The notes beneath the pieces were generated by a model. The model was not told the DNA's origin, made no database searches, and saw only the letters and a program-made list of their open reading frames with translations. From Halioglobus sp. (GTDB taxonomy: Bacteria; Pseudomonadota; Gammaproteobacteria; Pseudomonadales; Halieaceae), in the NCBI GenBank assembly GCA_029246385.1, contig JAQWNG010000026.1:1-64000 (forward strand): 64,000 nt of DNA, given 5' to 3'. Of the stretch, positions 828-44,487 are shown one piece after another; position 1 is the first letter of the stretch, and every line of letters starts with the position of its first letter. The translations under genes and the position numbers were made by a program.

Positions 828-965
828 AGACTATAAGCGGCTACAGTGTTTCCGACCTAAGGGGTAGTTCTTACCCGAGAGTCAGTATGTGATAATGGGG
901 TCACGATACCGTAACCGCTCGGCTTTGCAATGAGTATAGGCCAGAAGGATTGTATGGGGGGGAGT

Positions 966-1673
966 ATGACCGGAATTTTGGCGATTGAAACCGCGACCGA
1001 CACTTGTTCTATTGCTGTTTCTATTGATGGACAGATTAGAGAGCGTCACGAAGTTGCTCCGCGGCAACACAACGAATTGCTTTTTTCCATGCTGAACGAA
1101 CTTTTGCCTAATGGTACTTTGAGGGAACAGGGTATAGATCTTATCGCTTATGGATGCGGACCGGGCTCGTTTACTGGCTTACGCATAGCAGCCAGCGCGG
1201 TTCAGGGGTTAGCCTACAGCTGTGGTTTGCCAGCGGTCGCTGTCCCCACACTAGCGATTTTGGCGCAAAATGCGTTAGGTCGGAATGAAGTGAGCGCCGC
1301 TGACACGATACTGTGCGCGCTCGATGCTCGGGTTAACGAGGTTTATAGTGCAGTCTATCAGTACGAGCATAAACTTCCTGTGTTGCGTGATGGTCCATGG
1401 GCGTGTTCGCCAGCAGATCTCGCACTCGAGATGCCTGGGTCCTTGACAGTGGTGGGTGACGGTGGTCGCTTTTTGGAACAATTCTCAGAGGCTCTGCGGG
1501 TAACCGTTGTTGCCACGCTTGTTGATATCGTGCCTATGGCAAGGGATATGATTCCTATTGCAGCGGTAAAATTTCAAAATGGTGAGATTCAGTCGCCCGG
1601 GCAGGTTCAGCCGGTCTACGTGCGCGACGAAATATCCTGGAAAAAACTTGCACAGCAAGGAAAGCCAGCATAA
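966..1673 (+). CDS. tsaB: tRNA threonylcarbamoyladenosine biosynthesis protein TsaB
   Basis: A 235-residue member of the ASKHA-fold TsaB family, the partner of TsaD/TsaE in t6A37 formation on ANN-decoding tRNAs. Family landmarks are the N-terminal ILAIETATDTCS and GPGSFTGLR at residues 65-73. I chose the ATG at 966 because a purine-rich GGGGGGAG element lies just upstream and TsaB proteins normally begin a few residues before ILAIDT; an in-frame ATG at 930 would add 12 residues that do not look conserved. Its stop overlaps the uppP start (TAATG). Confidence 0.93.
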   Translation: MTGILAIETATDTCSIAVSIDGQIRERHEVAPRQHNELLFSMLNELLPNGTLREQGIDLIAYGCGPGSFTGLRIAASAVQGLAYSCGLPAVAVPTLAILAQNALGRNEVSAADTILCALDARVNEVYSAVYQYEHKLPVLRDGPWACSPADLALEMPGSLTVVGDGGRFLEQFSEALRVTVVATLVDIVPMARDMIPIAAVKFQNGEIQSPGQVQPVYVRDEISWKKLAQQGKPA

Positions 1674-2473
1674 TGGACACATATCAAGCGTTATTTCTCG
1701 CTCTCGTGCAAGGTTTAACCGAATTTCTACCCGTTTCTAGTTCGGCCCATTTGGTGATTCCTTCTCTCCTATTGGACTGGACTGATCAAGGGTTGGCCTT
1801 TGATGTTGCCGTGCATGTAGGCACTCTTGTGGCGGTGTTACTGTATTACCGAGAGGATCTGCTGCGCATGACCGATCGTTGGCTGCGTTCGCTCGCGGGT
1901 GCCCCTGCTTGCGATGATAGTCGCTTGGTATGGTATCTGGGGCTGGCAACTATTCCAGCGGGGCTGGTTGGACTGCTTGCGGGTGGTTTTATAGAGGCAA
2001 ATCTTCGGACTCTGCCCGTTGTTGCGACGACGACGCTCCTTTTTGGTGTGCTATTGGGAGTAGCTGATCGCAGGGGCACTGCAGCCGCGCTTGGGCGCCC
2101 ACTCGGGTTGACAATGGCTATTCTCATCGGTTGTGCACAGATGTTGGCCTTAGTCCCCGGTGTTTCACGTTCGGGCGTAACAATGACAGCTGCGTTAATG
2201 CTGGGAATGGACCGGCAGTCTTCTGCCCGGTTTTCTTTCCTGCTATCGATACCCATTATTGCTAGTGCGGGTCTGCTAAAGGCCTGGGAGCTTGCTGAGG
2301 ATGACGCCGCAGTTGACTGGGTATCACTGGGGCTGGGAGCGACCGCTTCCGGCCTTGCGGCTTATTGCTGCATCGCCATTTTTTTGCGGTTACTGAACAA
2401 GGTCGGCTTTATGCCTTTTGTATATTACAGAATAGTATTGGCTGCAATATTGTATACATTTTGGTTAGTATAA
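1673..2473 (+). CDS. uppP: Undecaprenyl-diphosphatase UppP (BacA family)
   Basis: A 266-residue polytopic inner-membrane protein that dephosphorylates undecaprenyl pyrophosphate to recycle the lipid carrier for peptidoglycan and other envelope glycans. The two family signatures are present: EFLPVSSSAH (residues 17-26), with the catalytic Glu, and PGVSRSG (160-166), with the active-site Ser/Arg. The start codon overlaps the tsaB stop by one base, so the two are probably translated from one message. Confidence 0.95.
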   Translation: MDTYQALFLALVQGLTEFLPVSSSAHLVIPSLLLDWTDQGLAFDVAVHVGTLVAVLLYYREDLLRMTDRWLRSLAGAPACDDSRLVWYLGLATIPAGLVGLLAGGFIEANLRTLPVVATTTLLFGVLLGVADRRGTAAALGRPLGLTMAILIGCAQMLALVPGVSRSGVTMTAALMLGMDRQSSARFSFLLSIPIIASAGLLKAWELAEDDAAVDWVSLGLGATASGLAAYCCIAIFLRLLNKVGFMPFVYYRIVLAAILYTFWLV

Positions 2474-2514: not shown

Positions 2515-3822
2515 ATGAATCAGCAGGAGTTCAACCGACAGCTATGCCGTTTTTTAGCGGCAGCTACCACGCCATTCCACGCTGTAGCGGAGATGGTGAA
2601 ATGGCTAACGGCAGCAGGATTTGTCCGTTTAGCAGACGATGCCCAATGGGATATTAAGCCGGGTGGTAAATATTTCTTAACGCGAAACGGCAGCTCAATT
2701 GTGGCGTTTTTCCACGGGAAGGAGAATCTGTCGAATGCAGGCATGCGCATGGTTGGTGCCCATACCGATAGTCCTTGTCTGATGGTCAAGCCAACGCCTG
2801 AAATTGTGTCCCAAGGTTTGTTTCAACTTGGCGTGCAGGTTTATGGTGGGGCACTGCTCAATCCTTGGTTTGATCGCGATTTATCACTTGCTGGCAGAGT
2901 CAGTTTCCAGTGTCCTGACGGTCAGTTGCGGGTTGCACTGATTGATTTTCGTGATGCCATCGCAACTGTTCCTAGTCTTGCCATTCATCTTGATCGTGGC
3001 GCCAACACGAAGCGTGACGTGAACCCACAGACGGCCATAGTGCCGGTGCTATCTCGCCTGGCTGAGGGAGAGGTGATCGATTTCCGAGAGCTCCTTTATG
3101 CACAACTGATTTTAGAGCACCCCCAGTGGGCGGGATGCCAAGTATTGGATTATGAATTATCATTTTACGATACCCAAGCCCCGAGACTGATTGGCCTGCG
3201 GCAGGACTTTATCGCTTCGGCGCGCCTAGATAACCTGCTTAGCTGCTTTACCGGCTTGCAGGCCCTGATTGAAAGCGATGGTGCAGAGAGTGCGCTACTG
3301 ATTTGCAATGACCATGAGGAAGTGGGTAGCCTTTCGGCCTCCGGTGCAGGAGGGCCTCTGCTAACATCCGTGCTCAATCGCCTCGCAGGAAACGATGCAA
3401 ATTATTCTGCGCTGACCGAGCGATCAATGATGATTTCTGTGGACAACGCTCATGCAATACATCCCAACTTTACCGACCGGCATGATAAAAATCATGGGCC
3501 ACTTTTGAATGGCGGGCCTGTCATCAAGATCAATGCGAGTCAACGTTATGCCACGAACAGCGAAACGAGTGGCCTATTCAGAATACTGGCGTCGCTTGAA
3601 GACGTTTCTGTGCAGTCTTTTGTCGTGCGCAATGACATGGCATGTGGCAGCACTATTGGGCCAATTACTGCTGGCGCCACTGGTATTCGAACGCTCGATA
3701 TCGGTGTGCCGACTTTGGGTATGCACTCTATTCGTGAATTGGCTGGTGCGGAGGATGGCTGGAGCCTCAGTCGTATCTTACGACGTTACTATACCCATCC
3801 TGGGCGGCTCTCTGCGATCTGA
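2515..3822 (+). CDS. apeB: M18 family aminopeptidase
   Basis: A 435-residue cytosolic metallo-aminopeptidase of the aspartyl aminopeptidase/ApeB family, cleaving N-terminal residues from peptides. Metal and catalytic residues are visible: His83 in GAHTDSP, Asp238 in ARLDN, Glu267/Glu268 in NDHEEVGS, Asp309 in SVDNAHA and His403 in GMHSIRE. Length is typical of the family. It is followed after 9 bases by the QTMAN-like gene on the same strand, so the two are probably cotranscribed. Confidence 0.93.
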   Translation: MNQQEFNRQLCRFLAAATTPFHAVAEMVKWLTAAGFVRLADDAQWDIKPGGKYFLTRNGSSIVAFFHGKENLSNAGMRMVGAHTDSPCLMVKPTPEIVSQGLFQLGVQVYGGALLNPWFDRDLSLAGRVSFQCPDGQLRVALIDFRDAIATVPSLAIHLDRGANTKRDVNPQTAIVPVLSRLAEGEVIDFRELLYAQLILEHPQWAGCQVLDYELSFYDTQAPRLIGLRQDFIASARLDNLLSCFTGLQALIESDGAESALLICNDHEEVGSLSASGAGGPLLTSVLNRLAGNDANYSALTERSMMISVDNAHAIHPNFTDRHDKNHGPLLNGGPVIKINASQRYATNSETSGLFRILASLEDVSVQSFVVRNDMACGSTIGPITAGATGIRTLDIGVPTLGMHSIRELAGAEDGWSLSRILRRYYTHPGRLSAI

Positions 3823-3831
3823 GCGGACGTA

Positions 3832-4965
3832 ATGAACGTGCTTGTTTTGTCTGCATATGCTGCGCAGAGTCATGTGCATTGGCAACAGAGTTTGCAGATA
3901 ATGTTTGCGCAGTGGGATTGGCGCGTGCTGAGTCTTCCTCCAAGACACTTTAGCTGGCGAGTGCGCGGTAATGCGCTATTTTGGTCAATTGCGGAACGAG
4001 GTACGCTGGAGCAGTCATATGACCTTATTATAGCCACGTCAATGGTTGATTTGGCGACGTTACGGGGTCTAGTGCCGAGGCTTACCCGGGTCCCAACTAT
4101 CCTGTATTTTCATGAGAATCAGTTTGAGTATCCGCAGGATCAACAAAAGCACAGTTTGCTAGAAGCCCGAATGACCAGTGTTTATTCGGCACTGGCGGCT
4201 GACCGTATTGTATTTAACTCAGACTATAACCGCGATACGTTTCTGTCAGGCTGCTCTGCTCTGATGAAAAAGCTGCCTGACCGCGTGCCATCGGGTATTG
4301 CGCGGATGCTTCGAGAACGAGCAACGGTACTCCCGGTGCCATTTGAGTCGTATGGTAATCAGCGGGTAGAGGCTTGGTGGCCAGGTGCATCAAGGCGCTT
4401 CATCAAACGGCCTCTGCGTCTGCTGTGGGTTGGACGATTTGAACATGATAAGGGCGGGGAAGGCTTGCTTCGCATCTTGCGTCGACTAGAGAGTGTATCA
4501 CTCGATTACGAACTGGCAATGACGGGGCAACAATTCCGGCGATCTCCGGCGGTATTTAGTAAGATAAGGGCGCTATTTGGCCATCGTCTGGTGCAGTTTG
4601 GTTATGTGGATGGCATCAAAGAGTATCGAGCACTACTTCAGTCTGCTGATGTGGTACTGTCGACGGCTATTCACGAGTTTCAGGGATTGGCCGTAATAGA
4701 AGCGGTTGCACAACAATGTCTCCCGATCGTTCCGGATCGCCTCGCATATCCCGAAATATATCCAGCGAGGTACCGTTACGAATCTTGCCCTGATGATCCT
4801 GAGCGTGAAGCTGACGCCGCGACAAGCCTGATCCGGACAATGGCAGGACAGCAGCTAGTGCGCGGCGCGCATTATCCTGACGTATCTGGCTTTGAACTGG
4901 GTGCAATGGCGCCGAGGTATGAGCAAGTCTTTCGACAAGTCGCCTTCGCTCAGGATAGCCAATAA
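3832..4965 (+). CDS. tRNA-queuosine alpha-mannosyltransferase-like glycosyltransferase (PF12038/DUF3524)
   Basis: A 377-residue GT-B fold protein. The N-terminal half matches the DUF3524/QTMAN_N type, with IIATSMVDLATLRGL and the highly characteristic YFHENQFEYP at residues 92-101. The C-terminal half has GT4-like elements: LLWVGRFEHDKG near 200 and HEFQGLAVIEA near 280, the latter occupying the nucleotide-sugar site. The animal homologue (GTDC1/QTMAN) adds mannose to queuosine in tRNA-Asp, and mannosyl-queuosine formation is the most likely role here by homology. The donor and the tRNA target in this bacterium are not shown by the sequence. Neighbouring tsaB and trpS fit a translation theme. 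Confidence 0.8.
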   Translation: MNVLVLSAYAAQSHVHWQQSLQIMFAQWDWRVLSLPPRHFSWRVRGNALFWSIAERGTLEQSYDLIIATSMVDLATLRGLVPRLTRVPTILYFHENQFEYPQDQQKHSLLEARMTSVYSALAADRIVFNSDYNRDTFLSGCSALMKKLPDRVPSGIARMLRERATVLPVPFESYGNQRVEAWWPGASRRFIKRPLRLLWVGRFEHDKGGEGLLRILRRLESVSLDYELAMTGQQFRRSPAVFSKIRALFGHRLVQFGYVDGIKEYRALLQSADVVLSTAIHEFQGLAVIEAVAQQCLPIVPDRLAYPEIYPARYRYESCPDDPEREADAATSLIRTMAGQQLVRGAHYPDVSGFELGAMAPRYEQVFRQVAFAQDSQ

Positions 4966-5013: not shown

Positions 5014-6021
5014 ATGGCCATGCAACGCGTTCTAACAGGCATCACCACGACTGGCACGGTACATTTAGGCAATTATGTCGGCGCAATTCGTCCTGCGATT
5101 CTTGCGTCGCGTGACGATTTGTCCGAGCCATTCTTTTTCCTCGCCGATTATCATGCATTGATCAAATGCAGTGACCCCGCATTGATCCGCCAGTCAAGCA
5201 AGGAAATTGCGGCGACCTGGCTTGCCTTGGGCTTAGACACAGGAAAAGCCGTATTTTATCGTCAGTCGGATATTCCTGAAATAAGCGAGCTGAACTGGAT
5301 ACTCTGCTGCAGTGCGGCCAAGGGGTTGATGAATCGTGCACATGCGTACAAATCATCTATTCAAGCGAATGAAGACGCGGGCGAAGATGCGGACTTAGGC
5401 GTTACTATGGGGTTGTTCAGTTACCCTGTTTTGATGGCTGCTGATATTCTGATGTTTAATGCTGATAAAATTCCGGTGGGACGGGATCAAATTCAACACG
5501 TTGAAATGGCACGTGATATTGCGCAGCGATTCAATCACAATTTTACTGAGGTGTTTAGGCTGCCCGAGGCAGTCGTCAATGAGGATGGAGCTATTTTGCA
5601 AGGGACTGACGGCCGGAAGATGAGTAAGAGTTATAACAATACCATACCGCTGTTTTTGGCAGAGAAGCCGTTGCGAAAGGCGATCAATAAAATTAAAACT
5701 AATCTGTTGGAGCCTGGAGTTCCCAAGGATCCTGATTATTCTACCGTGTTCCAACTTTGGTCAGCATTCGCATCCGCTGAAGAAACGGCGAGAATGCGAG
5801 ACGAGTTTCACGCTGGTATCGCTTGGGGCGAAGCTAAGAAGCAGTTGTTCGAACTTATTAATAATGAGCTCGTGGACGTCAGAGATGAATATACTAGGCT
5901 AATGGATGATCCCGGCTATATAGAGAGTGTGCTGCTGCAGGGCGCAGAGCGTGCAAGGCAGCATAGTGGAGCGATGATTAGCAAAGTGCGTGACGCCGTC
6001 GGGATTGGGGCGATTCGTTAG
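5014..6021 (+). CDS. trpS: Tryptophanyl-tRNA synthetase
   Basis: A 335-residue class I synthetase that charges tRNA-Trp. The HIGH-like element is TGTVHLGN (residues 13-20) and the KMSKS loop is intact at about 202-206. The length is that of the compact bacterial enzyme without extra domains. It starts 48 bases after the QTMAN-like gene on the same strand. A 278-base AT-rich gap follows with no clear terminator. Confidence 0.95.
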   Translation: MAMQRVLTGITTTGTVHLGNYVGAIRPAILASRDDLSEPFFFLADYHALIKCSDPALIRQSSKEIAATWLALGLDTGKAVFYRQSDIPEISELNWILCCSAAKGLMNRAHAYKSSIQANEDAGEDADLGVTMGLFSYPVLMAADILMFNADKIPVGRDQIQHVEMARDIAQRFNHNFTEVFRLPEAVVNEDGAILQGTDGRKMSKSYNNTIPLFLAEKPLRKAINKIKTNLLEPGVPKDPDYSTVFQLWSAFASAEETARMRDEFHAGIAWGEAKKQLFELINNELVDVRDEYTRLMDDPGYIESVLLQGAERARQHSGAMISKVRDAVGIGAIR

Positions 6022-6299: not shown

Positions 6300-6650
6300 A
6301 TGAGTCGTCCTGTTAAAGACCATGAAATCTTGTCGGCGGTATTCGCCAAAATGGATGCTGTAGCCATGACTGTTGCCTTAGGCGCTTTATGTTCGTTGTT
6401 GCTGTTTTTGGCGACTGCCGTGCTGTTAGTGCAGGCTTCTCCGGACAGTTATTTTGTAGGTGAACACCTGAGAGATTTGTCTGATTACCTTCCAGGTTAT
6501 AGCGTTAGCTGGATGGGGGCTGGAATCGGTGCAGGTTATGGTCTTTTGCTGGGTGGAATAGCGGGTTTTCTTGTTGCGGTATACTGGAATTTGACGCATT
6601 ACTTCGCGCTTGGTGTGATGTTAATTAGTTCCGCAGAATTGGCAGATTGA
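6300..6650 (+). CDS. Small membrane protein with one PGYSVS module
   Basis: A 116-residue protein I do not recognise. It has two hydrophobic segments (about residues 20-45 and 72-95). Just before the second sits YLPGYSVSWMGAGIGAGYG (PGYSVS at 65-70), a tight turn followed by Gly-spaced residues that would suit helix packing. The same arrangement occurs twice in the next gene, so this one is the single-module form. A GGAGG lies upstream of the ATG. It is first in a run of same-strand genes leading to a mutase-like flavoprotein and a glycosyltransferase; function unknown. Confidence 0.75.
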   Translation: MSRPVKDHEILSAVFAKMDAVAMTVALGALCSLLLFLATAVLLVQASPDSYFVGEHLRDLSDYLPGYSVSWMGAGIGAGYGLLLGGIAGFLVAVYWNLTHYFALGVMLISSAELAD

Positions 6651-6680
6651 CGCAGTAATTGAAGTGGGGAAGACTAAGAC

Positions 6681-7322
6681 ATGAAAGCCATGAATCGTGA
6701 CGCCGATCACGTAAACTTCAAACTACTCGAAGCAGCGATCCGGTTTAACGCGCGTATACTGGGTCTCACTGCGGGGACTTTGGCTGCAGCGGTTATTTAT
6801 ATTGCTACGCAAGCCTCTATTGTAAAGTGGGGTGGTGACTCCGGTGGTTACTTGGAGTTACTTGCAATTTTCTTCCCCGGATATTCTGTATCTAGCACGG
6901 GAGCTTGGGTGGGTGCGTTCTGGGCTTTTATATATTGCGGCACCGGTAGCTGGTTAAGTTACAGGGTCTACGGAAAAGTATTGGGTGCACGGATATCGGG
7001 ATTATTGCTGAGTCCTGGCTCGACTATGAATCCGGTGCTCAAACCGTCGACCCTGAGACTGCATGGTGTTAGCCTCGGGATCGCTATAGGCGCTATTGCC
7101 GGTCTAGGCTTGTTCGCTTCGACAGCATGGCTAGTGATACGTGGCACGGCAGGGGAGAGTGTTCACGCAGCGCTCTTTTCGAATTATATACCTGGTTACA
7201 GCGTAAGTATTTTCGGTGGATTGTGGGGCGCAATTGAATTATTCGGCCTAGTTTTCCTGTCATGCTTGTTGCTTGCTACGGTATACAACAGGTTAGTTGA
7301 AATGCGGCATAAGACGCCTTAA
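6681..7322 (+). CDS. Membrane protein with two PGYSVS modules
   Basis: A 213-residue protein with four predicted membrane segments in two repeats. Each repeat is a helix, an extramembrane loop, the motif PGYSVS (residues 66-71 and 171-176), then a Gly-rich helix (STGAWVGAFW and IFGGLWGAIE). It looks like an internal duplication of the unit in the preceding 116-residue protein, 30 bases upstream. It contains no enzyme motif that I recognise. It ends 4 bases before the flavoprotein ATG, which suggests coupled expression. Function unknown. Confidence 0.75.
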   Translation: MKAMNRDADHVNFKLLEAAIRFNARILGLTAGTLAAAVIYIATQASIVKWGGDSGGYLELLAIFFPGYSVSSTGAWVGAFWAFIYCGTGSWLSYRVYGKVLGARISGLLLSPGSTMNPVLKPSTLRLHGVSLGIAIGAIAGLGLFASTAWLVIRGTAGESVHAALFSNYIPGYSVSIFGGLWGAIELFGLVFLSCLLLATVYNRLVEMRHKTP

Positions 7323-7326
7323 CGGC

Positions 7327-8814
7327 ATGGTAGATATGAATACGAATGAACACGTTGTTATTCTCGGTGCTGGTCCTGCAGGGCTCGCCACTGGGCACGA
7401 GTTAAGCGATAGCGGCGTTAAGGTGTCGGTGTTAGATAGAAATGATTTTGTTGGCGGACTGTGCAATACGAACGAGTACAAAGGGTATAAATTCGATCTA
7501 GGAGGTCATCGGTGGTTTAGTAAGAACGAGGATTTGAATAATTGGTTTCGAAGATTGATGGGCGATGAGGTCGTCTGGGTGAACCGTATCAGCCGCATAT
7601 ACTATGACGGCGGCTATTATTTGTATCCTATTAGTATTCTAAACGTCATCAAAAACGCGGGTATTCTGACTATTATGCATGCAGGGATAACTTATCTATG
7701 GTCCGCATTGCAATACTCTATTTTCGACAAGTCGATTAATAACATGAGAGACGCCTATGTAGCGCAGTTTGGCGGAAAGTTATACGACATGTTTTTTCGT
7801 CGTTACAGTGAAAAGGTCTGGGGGCTCCCCTGTGAGAAACTGTCTTCAGATTGGGTATCTCAGCGCAGCGCCGGTTTGTCGATCTGGACTGTAATTCAAG
7901 AATCGTTGATGAAGACTAAGTCTGACAATGAGAGCTTGATAGAGGAATTCATGTACCCGCGTGATGGTTACGTTCGTATCCCTCAGCGAATGGCAGAAGA
8001 TATTGTCACCAAGGGCGGCCCTGATTCTGTTGTACTTGGGTCAACTGTAACGGGAATAAAGTATATTGGGCCAAATGATTTTGAGATAGTCTACCGTAAG
8101 CAAGACGGTGAGGAGTATTCGATAAAGGCCACTACGGTCGTGTCAACCATCCCTTTGGGTTTACTTCCAAGGATTATGGAACCGGCATGCGATCAAAAGG
8201 TGATTGATGCCGCTAAAGGGCTTAGTTTTCGTGCATTGATTACGGTCAATGTTATTCTCAAAAAGAAAAGAGTCTCTATTGATACTTGGCTCTATGTTCA
8301 AGATGAAGACATTCTTTTTGGGCGTCTGCATGAACCTAAGAACTGGAGTCCTGCAATGATTCCTGACCAATCGACGACCTCTTTAGTGTTGGAATGTTTT
8401 TGCACTAAGGATGATCATATCTGGAATATGACAGATGAAGAGGTTGGGCAACAGTGTATTGAGGATCTGGAGAAAAAGCTAAAATTTATTGATAGTTCAG
8501 AAGTGATCGACTTTTCCTGCGTCCGGACTCTTCAGGCCTACCCCGTCTATGACCTTGAATATGCTGGAAAAATTGCCCTTATTAATGATTTTCTGGGGCA
8601 ATTTGAAGGTTTGCACATCGTTGGACGAGGGGGAACGCATCGCTACAATAACGCCGATCATTCAATTGAGATGGGGCTGCTGCTAGGTCGCAAAATCTTG
8701 GGCTATGACGTTGATCACATGGATGTCAATACGGAGCCTGAATATCAGGAGATCAAACGTTCGAATGACTCTAAGCGCGATGCTTACAAGTTAGAGGGTG
8801 AACGTGAAAAGTAA
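7327..8814 (+). CDS. UDP-galactopyranose mutase-like FAD/NAD(P)-binding protein
   Basis: About 495 residues with an N-terminal dinucleotide-binding fold (VVILGAGPAGLATG), followed by VGGLCNT and GGHRWFS, the pattern seen in flavoproteins related to UDP-galactopyranose mutase and protoporphyrinogen oxidase. The C-terminal FAD contact is GRGGTHRYNNADHS. The actual reaction is uncertain: sugar-nucleotide ring contraction or a lipid/sugar oxidation are both possible. I start at the ATG at 7327, just after the upstream stop; 7336 is an alternative. Neighbouring a family 2 glycosyltransferase supports a glycan or glycolipid role. Confidence 0.75.
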   Translation: MVDMNTNEHVVILGAGPAGLATGHELSDSGVKVSVLDRNDFVGGLCNTNEYKGYKFDLGGHRWFSKNEDLNNWFRRLMGDEVVWVNRISRIYYDGGYYLYPISILNVIKNAGILTIMHAGITYLWSALQYSIFDKSINNMRDAYVAQFGGKLYDMFFRRYSEKVWGLPCEKLSSDWVSQRSAGLSIWTVIQESLMKTKSDNESLIEEFMYPRDGYVRIPQRMAEDIVTKGGPDSVVLGSTVTGIKYIGPNDFEIVYRKQDGEEYSIKATTVVSTIPLGLLPRIMEPACDQKVIDAAKGLSFRALITVNVILKKKRVSIDTWLYVQDEDILFGRLHEPKNWSPAMIPDQSTTSLVLECFCTKDDHIWNMTDEEVGQQCIEDLEKKLKFIDSSEVIDFSCVRTLQAYPVYDLEYAGKIALINDFLGQFEGLHIVGRGGTHRYNNADHSIEMGLLLGRKILGYDVDHMDVNTEPEYQEIKRSNDSKRDAYKLEGEREK

Positions 8815-8893
8815 TGGATTTCCTAGCGCTTATTCAGGGGCCGGGTCTACTGCAAATACAATAAAGATGTATGGGAAGACAGATTGGTGCTGA
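8798..8893 (+). pseudogene. Possible truncated glutaredoxin-like ORF
   Basis: A GTG-started frame of 31 codons overlaps the end of the flavoprotein gene in another frame, with an AGAGGG element just upstream. Its end, TIKMYGKTDWC, resembles the first strand and active-site start of glutaredoxin/mycoredoxin proteins, but a TGA follows the Cys at once and I could not follow the rest of the domain downstream. It is either a decayed remnant or a chance match. Confidence 0.3.
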
Positions 8894-9061
8894 AGCAGTC
8901 TCTGCTGATAAGGTAGTCACGGGTTTAGTACATACTTGGTTCCACTGCAGCATTTCCTACGAGTGAGACTCGATTATCTGAGGCTAGGATTAGTAAATGA
9001 GACGCGCAAGTATATCGACGAGAGCTAAGCAAACGATAAAATCCTGGCGTGCTGGGTCTTT

Positions 9062-10114
9062 ATGAGCGGTGAGGCAGCTGACCTGCTGCACTCTCAGGTC
9101 AATTATTTGGGCCAGCGTATCAGCGTTATTATGCCGCTCTACAATGGCTGTGAGTTTATACCACTAAGCTTGCCCCCGCTCATAGATATGATGCATCGAG
9201 GAGAAATTTTTGAAGTCATTGTAGTTGATGATGGCTCAACAGATGGTAGTAAACAGATGGCGGAGGCGATAGGGGCAAAGGTGCTGTCATCCGGTGGCCG
9301 CCTCGGGCCTGGAGGAGCGAGGAATCAGGCCGCAAACAGCGCGCTTGGCGATATACTCTGGTTTGTCGATGCAGATGTCGTGGTACACGCCGATGCGGCG
9401 AAATGTCTGGCCGCTGGTTTTGACGTAGAGCAGGTCGTTGCAGTATTTGGGTCCTACGATAGCAATCCGCCCGCTAGAAACTTTTTTTCACAGTACAAAA
9501 ATCTTGTGCATCACTATTATCACAATCGTGCGAAAGATGAAGCACAGACCTTTTGGTCTGGATGTGGTGCGGTTAGACGCAACGCTTTTTTGAGTCGTGG
9601 CGGTTTCGACGTAGAGCGCTATCAATACCCATCGATTGAGGATATCGAGCTCGGGCACCGTCTGATAAAAGCCGGTGGTCGGATACGTTTGTTGCGAGAA
9701 GTGCAATGTACGCATCTGAAAGTTTGGAGATTTTGGAATCTCGTTCACACCGAAATATTTAGACGTGCTATACCTTGGTCGCGCCTGATTGTGACGTCTG
9801 GCGATGGTATACCCAACGATCTCAATGTTGGCGTGGGGGAGCAGGCGCGGGCAGTTTTAGCGGGTATATTATTCCTTGCGATACTGGCCTCTCTTGCGGG
9901 TTATATTAGTCCGGCTATGGTCTTAGGGTTAGGGTTGGCAGTGCTTGTAGCCAATCGTGATATAGCCGTTTTTTTTAATAGAAGAAGAGGGCCAGTGTTC
10001 GCTATAGGCGCAGTATTTTTTCATCAAATATACTATCTATATAGTGCTTCGGCGTTTGCTTGGGTGTTTCTTGAGCAAGCTAGTTTAACTATTTTTCGTT
10101 CAAAATCTTCGTGA
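9062..10114 (+). CDS. Family 2 glycosyltransferase, membrane-anchored
   Basis: A 350-residue GT-A enzyme. SVIMPLYNG (about 22-30) begins the domain, VVDDGSTDG binds nucleotide, and VDADVVV near 104 carries the metal-binding DxD. FWSGCGAVRR and EDIELGHRL are later family elements. The last ~80 residues hold two or three hydrophobic segments, so it should work at the cytoplasmic face of the inner membrane, adding sugar to a lipid or polymer acceptor. The acceptor is not identifiable. A 247-base gap separates it from the flavoprotein gene. Confidence 0.85.
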   Translation: MSGEAADLLHSQVNYLGQRISVIMPLYNGCEFIPLSLPPLIDMMHRGEIFEVIVVDDGSTDGSKQMAEAIGAKVLSSGGRLGPGGARNQAANSALGDILWFVDADVVVHADAAKCLAAGFDVEQVVAVFGSYDSNPPARNFFSQYKNLVHHYYHNRAKDEAQTFWSGCGAVRRNAFLSRGGFDVERYQYPSIEDIELGHRLIKAGGRIRLLREVQCTHLKVWRFWNLVHTEIFRRAIPWSRLIVTSGDGIPNDLNVGVGEQARAVLAGILFLAILASLAGYISPAMVLGLGLAVLVANRDIAVFFNRRRGPVFAIGAVFFHQIYYLYSASAFAWVFLEQASLTIFRSKSS

Positions 10115-10251
10115 GGTCGTTGCCTGGTCCGTCGGTTAGACTCAGTTGAAAAGCGGCAGTTCTCTCTGACGACGCGGTTAGTCTTCAGCATCATCTCGCA
10201 ATATTGTCAGGCGCTTAGACGCTGCCCAGAAACACAGGTTTTTGCTTTCCA

Positions 10252-11619
10252 TTGAAGATACTTTCCTTAACGGCGCTACAAGAACTGCTCAAATTATCAT
10301 TGCCTATGATGGTGTCGCAGGGCGCGTTTGCAGTTATGGTCTTTACCGATCGCTTTTTTATGTCTTATATCGATGCGACACATATTGCTGCATCGTTGGG
10401 TGGAGGCGTAGCAGCTTTTTTTTGTTTTTCACTGTTTATGGGCCTAATAGCCTATGGAAACGCCATGGTGGCGCAGCACTTTGGCGCAGGACAGTTAGCC
10501 AAGTGCTCGCTGGTCACCACTCAGGGTATTCTGATCGCATTGGGGAGTGCCCCATTCTTGCTCTTGATGACATACTTTGGTGGACAGGCATTTGGCATGC
10601 TTGGACATGCATCGGCGCAAGTGCCGCTAGAACAGACGTATTTTTATATTCTAATGAGTGGAAGTATCTTTACGTTACTGAAGGCATGCTTAGCCTCCTA
10701 CTTTGCTGGTATCGGTCGCACGCGTGTCGTTATGGTTGCGGATTTATCAGGCGCTGCGCTCAATGTTCCGCTGTCATGGGCGCTGATATTCGGTAATCTT
10801 GGTATGCCCGAGATGGGCATCGCTGGCGCGGCTTTGGGGACCATCGCTGCTACAGTGTTCGCCATCAGTATCTTTCTATGTTTTTATCTGTCAGCGAGTC
10901 ACCAGCGTCAGTTTTCCGTGGCGCAGTCGTGGCGCTTCGACGGCGGCATCATGCGGCGCTACCTGCGTTTAGGCATGCCATCGGGATTGGAATCGTTCAT
11001 GAACACCTCCAGTTTCAACTTATTTTTGCTGCTTTTCCAATCCTATGGTGTAGTGCAGGGTGCTGCTATGGCGATCGTATTTAATTGGGATATGCTTTCG
11101 TTTATTCCAATGATCGGATTGAATATTGGTGTGATGAGCTTTATCGGTCGCCTAGTAGGCAGCGGGAGCATGGTAAGAGCAAATCAGGTGATTTCTTCAG
11201 GATTTATCGTCGGATTGGGTTACTCCGGCGTCTTGGCGGTCTTTTTTCTGCTATTTCGCGAAAACTTAATCAACGTATTCGAGAACTCTGGAGAAAATTT
11301 TGCTGCGATACGAGACCTCGCCAGTGACATGATGATCGGTCTAGTCACTTATATGCTCGCGGATGCTACGATTTTGGTCGCCGGTGGCGCGCTTCGTGGT
11401 GCGGGGGATACGCGTTGGATCATGGTAACGTCAATTACTATGCACTGGCTGATGCTGCTCGCTCAATATGGCGTGATTGTTGTTTATGGTTATGGACCAC
11501 GAGTTTCTTGGTGGGTATTCGTCGCAATGTTGATCGTTTTGGGTCTACTTTATTTAGGCCGACTCCTCGGTGGAACATGGCGTCATCCGGAGCGGCTTGC
11601 TCGGGTAATGCGTGAATAG
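10252..11619 (+). CDS. MATE family efflux transporter
   Basis: A 455-residue protein with about twelve hydrophobic segments in two similar halves, typical of MATE/NorM transporters that export cationic drugs or other organic compounds using Na+ or H+. LSLPMMVSQGAFAVMVFTDR at the N-terminus and AGAALGTIAATVF in the first half match the family. The frame opens with TTG at 10252; the first downstream ATG would remove part of helix 1, so I keep TTG. A lipid-linked intermediate as substrate is possible from its neighbours but unproven. Confidence 0.85.
   Translation: MKILSLTALQELLKLSLPMMVSQGAFAVMVFTDRFFMSYIDATHIAASLGGGVAAFFCFSLFMGLIAYGNAMVAQHFGAGQLAKCSLVTTQGILIALGSAPFLLLMTYFGGQAFGMLGHASAQVPLEQTYFYILMSGSIFTLLKACLASYFAGIGRTRVVMVADLSGAALNVPLSWALIFGNLGMPEMGIAGAALGTIAATVFAISIFLCFYLSASHQRQFSVAQSWRFDGGIMRRYLRLGMPSGLESFMNTSSFNLFLLLFQSYGVVQGAAMAIVFNWDMLSFIPMIGLNIGVMSFIGRLVGSGSMVRANQVISSGFIVGLGYSGVLAVFFLLFRENLINVFENSGENFAAIRDLASDMMIGLVTYMLADATILVAGGALRGAGDTRWIMVTSITMHWLMLLAQYGVIVVYGYGPRVSWWVFVAMLIVLGLLYLGRLLGGTWRHPERLARVMRE

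Positions 11620-44410: not shown

Positions 44411-44487
<77 letters not shown>

Follow-up and report, generated by a model that had tools for sequence, protein, structure and literature searches.

Genes at the locus

The window, that is, the whole stretch of 64,000 nucleotides that was analysed, carries an intact open reading frame of 377 codons, which runs from an ATG to a TAA and encodes a GT4-type glycosyltransferase of the QTMAN family (Table 1). The opposite strand of the same interval, in the one frame that was read, contained many stops. The genes lie in the order mobA (minus strand), tsaB, uppP, M18 aminopeptidase, QTMAN and trpS, and the aminopeptidase gene is presumably apeB-like. 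The sequence-only reading had placed trpS beside the QTMAN gene and tsaB near it, and profile matches confirmed both positions. The QTMAN start lies 9 bases past the stop of the aminopeptidase gene, and the two genes are possibly read as one transcript.

Table 1. Features of the QTMAN locus, in positions of the window.
Feature	Position	Strand	Evidence or remark
mobA	upstream of tsaB	-	profile match
tsaB, t6A synthesis subunit	930..1673	+	TIGR03725, above cut-off
uppP, undecaprenyl-diphosphate phosphatase	1673..2473	+	profile match
M18 family aminopeptidase	2515..3822	+	profile match
QTMAN-family GT4-type glycosyltransferase gene, 377 aa	3832..4965	+	ORF, Pfam, AlphaFold model, fold matches
QTMAN_N domain, residues 2-170	3835..4341	+	Pfam profile
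Motif YFHENQFEYP, residues 92-101	4105..4134	+	H94, E95, N96, F98 and P101 in 60/60
WVGRFEHDK, residues 199-207	4426..4452	+	W199, R202, E204, D206 and K207 in 60/60
HEFQGLAVIE, residues 281-290	4672..4701	+	putative GT4 E-x7-E
trpS, tryptophanyl-tRNA synthetase	5014..6021	+	TIGR00233, above cut-off

Several other features were seen in the window. Two small open reading frames at 6300-7322 encode hydrophobic stretches and a repeated PGYSVS (YLPGYSVSWMGAGIGAGYG, FFPGYSVSSTGAWVGAFW, YIPGYSVSIFGGLWGA). Farther downstream of trpS, the interval 7297-11619 encodes an FAD-dependent oxidase/desaturase-like protein with a weak PADLOC match (E 5e-9), and also, as judged by eye, a family 2 glycosyltransferase-like protein and a MATE-like transporter. 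A tRNA-Arg (TCT) gene at 44411-44487 was the sole tRNA gene found in the window.

Family membership, fold and conserved residues

The N-terminal half of the protein matched QTMAN_N (PF12038), which we take to be the former DUF3524, over profile positions 1-167 of 168, scoring 190.4 bits (cut-off 25; E 2.9e-56), and the C-terminal half matched the generic Pfam models Glyco_trans_1_4 (residues 196-334) and Glycos_transf_1 (residues 192-309), both above cut-off. Together with the motif YFHENQFEYP, these matches bear out the DUF3524 signature and the GT4-like half that had been recognised from the letters alone. None of the NCBIfam models reached its cut-off with the 377-residue protein. All 60 aligned relatives matched QTMAN_N, and in a tree of 60 proteins the window protein grouped with those of Halieaceae. 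The best named relative among the matches listed came from a Haliea sp. MAG (L033) and was 77% identical over the full length, and comparison of the two genes gave a pN of 0.12 and a pS of 0.57 (corrected, 0.13 and 1.06). This difference between pS and pN indicated that the QTMAN gene is under purifying selection and, taken with the full-length identity, that the open reading frame did not arise by chance.

The AlphaFold2 model, made with 60 sequences, had a pLDDT of 90.6 and a pTM of 0.90, and its VIA-align matches covered residues 1-375. Sucrose-phosphate synthase (6kih) was matched with Z 31.4 and an rmsd of 2.5 over 334 aligned residues, and MshA, BshA and PglA were also among the fold matches. 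Enzymes that act with mannose were matched as follows: methylmannose mannosyltransferase (7qsg) with Z 27.6, rmsd 3.5 and 322 aligned residues; PimB' with GDP-Man (3oka) with Z 25.2, rmsd 3.7 and 329 residues; and PimA with GDP-Man (2gej) with Z 24.4, rmsd 3.9 and 320 residues. Because UDP-sugar enzymes ranked above GDP-mannose enzymes, the fold does not tell which donor is used. In the fold searches nothing stood out besides glycosyltransferases of the GT-B/GT4 type. Among sequences of solved structures, a single-protein query returned 5i45 as the sole match up to E 1 (E 0.16), and a profile query returned only eight matches, all GT4-type, of which 5i45 was again the best (1.2e-6).

The residues listed in Table 1 include likely parts of a GT4 active site. 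R202 and K207 are presumably the donor-phosphate-binding pair, in the role that such residues have in GT4 enzymes, and E282-x7-E290 is taken here to be the GT4 E-x7-E motif, assigned to donor binding. At position 282, 34 of the 60 proteins have E and the other 26 have D; E290 was kept in 59, and H281, F283, Q284 and G285 were invariant in all 60, which are bacterial. The window protein is thus a retaining glycosyltransferase of the QTMAN family with a GT-B fold of the GT4 type, and its family membership, by sequence and fold together, is solid. Annotation based on Pfam would already call the protein QTMAN, the domain being named after the animal enzyme.

A GT4 enzyme could instead serve the synthesis of a surface polysaccharide, a lipid or a small molecule, and the Pfam name would then have been carried over from the animal branch. 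Many enzymes of that kind match the GT-B fold, and the isoelectric point of the family agrees with such a role: the window protein has a pI of 9.06, but the median of its relatives is 5.95 and only 7 of 60 exceed 8, so that the mostly acidic family gives no sign of general RNA binding. Nevertheless, the N-terminal half scored far above the QTMAN_N cut-off, and the NCBIfam polysaccharide models EPS_EpsE and HpsP gave 26.4 bits against a cut-off of 400 and 18.9 bits against 550, respectively. We regard this alternative as improbable, and further evidence on both of its sides is given below.

Distribution of the family

In a sample of 398 genomes of the phylum, QTMAN_N was found above cut-off in 28 and at E <= 0.001 in 29. 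Of the 28 positives, 16 belong to the host's own order and 1 more to its class; the other 11 are from family f40 of a different class, a number that rises to 12 if the weak match is counted. The twenty-ninth genome (G192) had a broken QTMAN_N match of 19 bits, and queA was not found in it. None of 14 control genomes, E. coli among them, had a match. Within the host's own family the gene was present in 55 of 81 genomes, and it was not found in any genome of the genera g217, g224, g225 and g236 (3, 8, 4 and 5 genomes, respectively) or in the single genomes of g232 and g240. Each of the 55 family positives and of the 29 phylum genomes had one match. Moreover, the named scan confirmed at least 573 relatives, and the best 80 of these belonged, by title, to Gammaproteobacteria and one Mariprofundus. 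The earlier description of a copy in a gammaproteobacterium was therefore correct but understated, and the QTMAN family is not rare. The named loci L047 and L048, on two contigs of one Cellvibrionaceae MAG (SAT230), were the same QTMAN locus with equal match values and perhaps reflect a duplicated assembly.

An origin from mobile elements was considered and rejected, since no relatives were confirmed in viral contigs, none were found on plasmids, and three phage records gave only partial matches of 15-23%. The same observations bear on the proposal that the protein is the glycosyltransferase of a biological-conflict (defence) system. That proposal starts from a weak match to the GT4-conflict model, with 27.5 bits against a cut-off of 26, which 23 of the 60 relatives shared at E <= 0.001. 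The match falls, however, in the generic GT4 half. The protein had no PADLOC match at E <= 0.01, and with one copy per positive genome and no relatives in the viral contigs and plasmids searched, a role in defence is hardly to be expected.

Gene neighbourhood

The neighbourhood was compared across 80 named loci, in 77 of which the QTMAN reading frame fell into one cluster. The fetched flank contained trpS in at least 27 of the 77 loci and any of trpS, apeB, tsaB and uppP in at least 32; these counts are lower bounds because some contigs stop early. At other loci QTMAN sat amid unrelated genes. QTMAN is thus a stand-alone gene that forms part, in several related families, of a conserved block with trpS, apeB, tsaB and uppP. 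Since it lies elsewhere among unrelated genes, its location is weak evidence for function, and with the block in only 32 of 77 loci (a lower bound) the neighbourhood was dropped as a proof of function.

A further scan took in 20 neighbouring genes, chosen by hand at 18 of the 45 loci where the block was not seen. None of the 20 matched a polysaccharide family, and one was without any match. These data suggest that a housekeeping acceptor fits better than a surface polymer, and the case against a polysaccharide or lipid enzyme is strengthened by the neighbours in the window itself (the M18 aminopeptidase gene and trpS), by trpS alongside QTMAN in the loci counted above and by the single copy per positive genome.

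A link through queA near QTMAN was likewise not claimed, as it was seen in only 4 of 80 loci, all of one lineage (Spongiibacter/Zhongshania). In these loci (L078, L081, L090 and L107), a gene identified by eye as queA follows QTMAN at a distance of 4.2-4.6 kb, past trpS, and the space between QTMAN and queA holds a receptor-like gene of opposite orientation.

Queuosine and GDP-mannose genes

The host genome is 3.3 Mb in size, is assembled in 45 contigs and has a completeness of 99.99%. It contained tgt (534 bits) and queA (461 bits), which overlap by one base, and a match of 505 bits to TIGR00276, which we take to be the queG family. All three were above cut-off, and the queuosine genes that the sequence-only reading had left to be checked are therefore present. 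GluQRS, which the sequence-only reading had not noticed, was also found (339 bits against a cut-off of 276.7), in a gene located, by eye, downstream of a dksA-like gene. The 38 tRNA matches included G34 genes for Asp (1), Asn (2), His (1) and Tyr (1). Furthermore, GMP_PMI, for the synthesis of GDP-mannose, was matched with 715 bits, and GDP-mannose is presumably the donor of QTMAN.

In the phylum sample queA was matched in all 28 QTMAN-positives (27 above cut-off), but also in 376 of the 398 genomes overall; because queA is near universal, its presence together with QTMAN carries little information. Within the host's family, queA was matched in 50 of the 55 positives and in 23 of the 26 negatives, which is no association. 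Being nearly saturated, co-occurrence with queA was consequently rejected as evidence for or against function. GMP_PMI was rejected as equally uninformative in the own family, where 54 of the 55 positives and 25 of the 26 negatives had it above cut-off; in the phylum subset it was above cut-off in 26 of the 27 positives that were searched and in 17 of the 20 negatives.

Five own-family positives gave no queA match, namely G406, G426, G437, G453 and G461, whose completeness is 66, 97, 87, 90 and 81%, respectively. They can be counted in favour of a polysaccharide or lipid enzyme, as can the finding that no part of the analysis tied the bacterial protein directly to Q. All five nevertheless carried GluQRS above cut-off, which suggests, but does not prove, assembly gaps. 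Three of them (G426, G453 and G461) belong to one genus, g214, and have QTMAN and GluQRS but no queA match; in these genomes the missing queA may be either an assembly gap or a real loss.

Coexistence of QTMAN with GluQRS

The new point here is that QTMAN coexists with GluQRS. GluQRS was above cut-off in all 17 gammaproteobacterial QTMAN-positives of the phylum sample and in at least 4 of the 11 positives of family f40. In the own family it was above cut-off in 53 of the 55 genomes with QTMAN and in 23 of the 26 without. Mutual exclusion of the two genes was thus rejected. Their coexistence shows that the two decorations are not alternatives at the level of the genome, and that a single genome codes for both enzymes, either of which could modify the same queuosine. 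One complete genome of the own family (G434, 100%) that is positive for QTMAN had a best GluQRS score of 187.7 bits, below cut-off, and possibly represents QTMAN without GluQRS.

Among the QTMAN-negative genera g217, g224, g225 and g236, GluQRS was above cut-off in 18 of 20 genomes and queA was matched in 19 of 20. The mean GluQRS scores of these genera were 280-312 bits against 316-359 bits (rounded) in the tested positive genera; in the negative genera g232 and g240, of one genome each, the scores were 345 and 352 bits and were not lowered. A rank test at the genus level gave p of about 0.06, uncorrected for kinship, and a lower GluQRS score in QTMAN-negatives is not claimed. The test left out the mixed genera g214, g226 and g228 and also, for want of GluQRS above cut-off, the genus g234 and the genomes G401 and G455; it kept G459 (269.6 bits).

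Since GluQRS already uses Q34 of tRNA-Asp, the protein might be a queuosine glycosyltransferase whose sugar or target tRNA is unlike that of the animal enzyme, for example tRNA-Asn, tRNA-His or tRNA-Tyr. The host, all 17 gammaproteobacterial phylum positives and nearly all family positives have GluQRS, all four Q-type tRNAs are encoded, and the invariance of Q284 within the E-x7-E motif was seen in proteins that are all bacterial. GluQRS and QTMAN could, however, act on different hydroxyls, in different growth states or on different fractions of one tRNA, and we consider such a departure from the animal enzyme rather unlikely.

On a wider scale, we suggest tentatively, and with slightly less than even confidence, that many gammaproteobacteria, largely of marine genera, together with Mariprofundus, may make glycosylated Q besides glutamyl-Q. 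QTMAN and GluQRS would then either compete for Q34 of tRNA-Asp or split the four Q-tRNAs between them, and the sugar branch would be absent from whole genera that keep the Q genes and GluQRS.

Proposed function

Of the readings weighed above, the one that we prefer, as probable, is that QTMAN adds a hexose to a cyclopentene hydroxyl of Q34 in tRNA, with tRNA-Asp as the first candidate; the sugar is most probably alpha-mannose, taken from GDP-mannose. In the proposed pathway, tgt, queA and queG would first build Q34; QTMAN would bind the Q-containing anticodon loop together with GDP-mannose; and mannose would then be transferred, with retention, to a cyclopentene hydroxyl of Q34. The acceptor Q-tRNA, the donor GDP-mannose, the hydroxyl and the tRNA are all inferred from the animal enzyme. 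A bacterial glycosylation of queuosine, as the sequence-only reading had suggested, is plausible on this analysis: the family membership and the presence of the Q genes hold, while mannosylation would follow by homology to the animal enzyme, and the location lends weak evidence.

The openly licensed papers searched yielded, as far as they were surveyed, nothing on a bacterial QTMAN, on bacterial manQ or on DUF3524; subscription papers and preprints lie mostly outside this literature. If bacteria make mannosyl-Q too, the modification would not be an animal feature, and clean deletions in bacteria that can be cultured would allow its part in decoding to be examined. Genomes that have both QTMAN and GluQRS would then lend themselves naturally to the question why two decorations are placed on one base. 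The coexistence opens the choice of tRNA and of hydroxyl to direct test.

Comparison with known systems

Animal QTMAN is reported to mannosylate Q of tRNA-Asp, with alpha-mannose at the allylic hydroxyl, and animal QTGAL to place galactose on the other hydroxyl of Q in tRNA-Tyr (PMC12518689; PMC8654956); in a further report the QTGAL gene is B3GNTL1 (PMC11705514). The window protein resembles animal QTMAN (human GTDC1) in its N-terminal domain, which bears the Pfam name of that enzyme, and in its GT4-type C-terminal half, and the bacterial host has the Q genes and a GDP-mannose gene. The likeness is drawn through the Pfam domain, and the bacterial gene differs in lying beside trpS, in a host that has its own Q-synthesis genes and GluQRS. 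QTGAL also glycosylates Q but is the product of a separate gene (B3GNTL1).

GluQRS (YadB, the glutamyl-queuosine tRNA-Asp synthetase) likewise modifies the cyclopentene of Q34 and has its gene in the same genome as QTMAN, but it is a synthetase paralogue that attaches glutamate and is thus another kind of enzyme. PimA and PimB' share with the window protein the GT-B GT4 fold, with full-length structural matches (Z 24.4 and 25.2), and have similar R/K and E-x7-E motifs. They differ in their lipid acceptor (phosphatidylinositol, according to the title of the PimA entry), and their identity to the window protein in the alignments is 16% and 13%, respectively.
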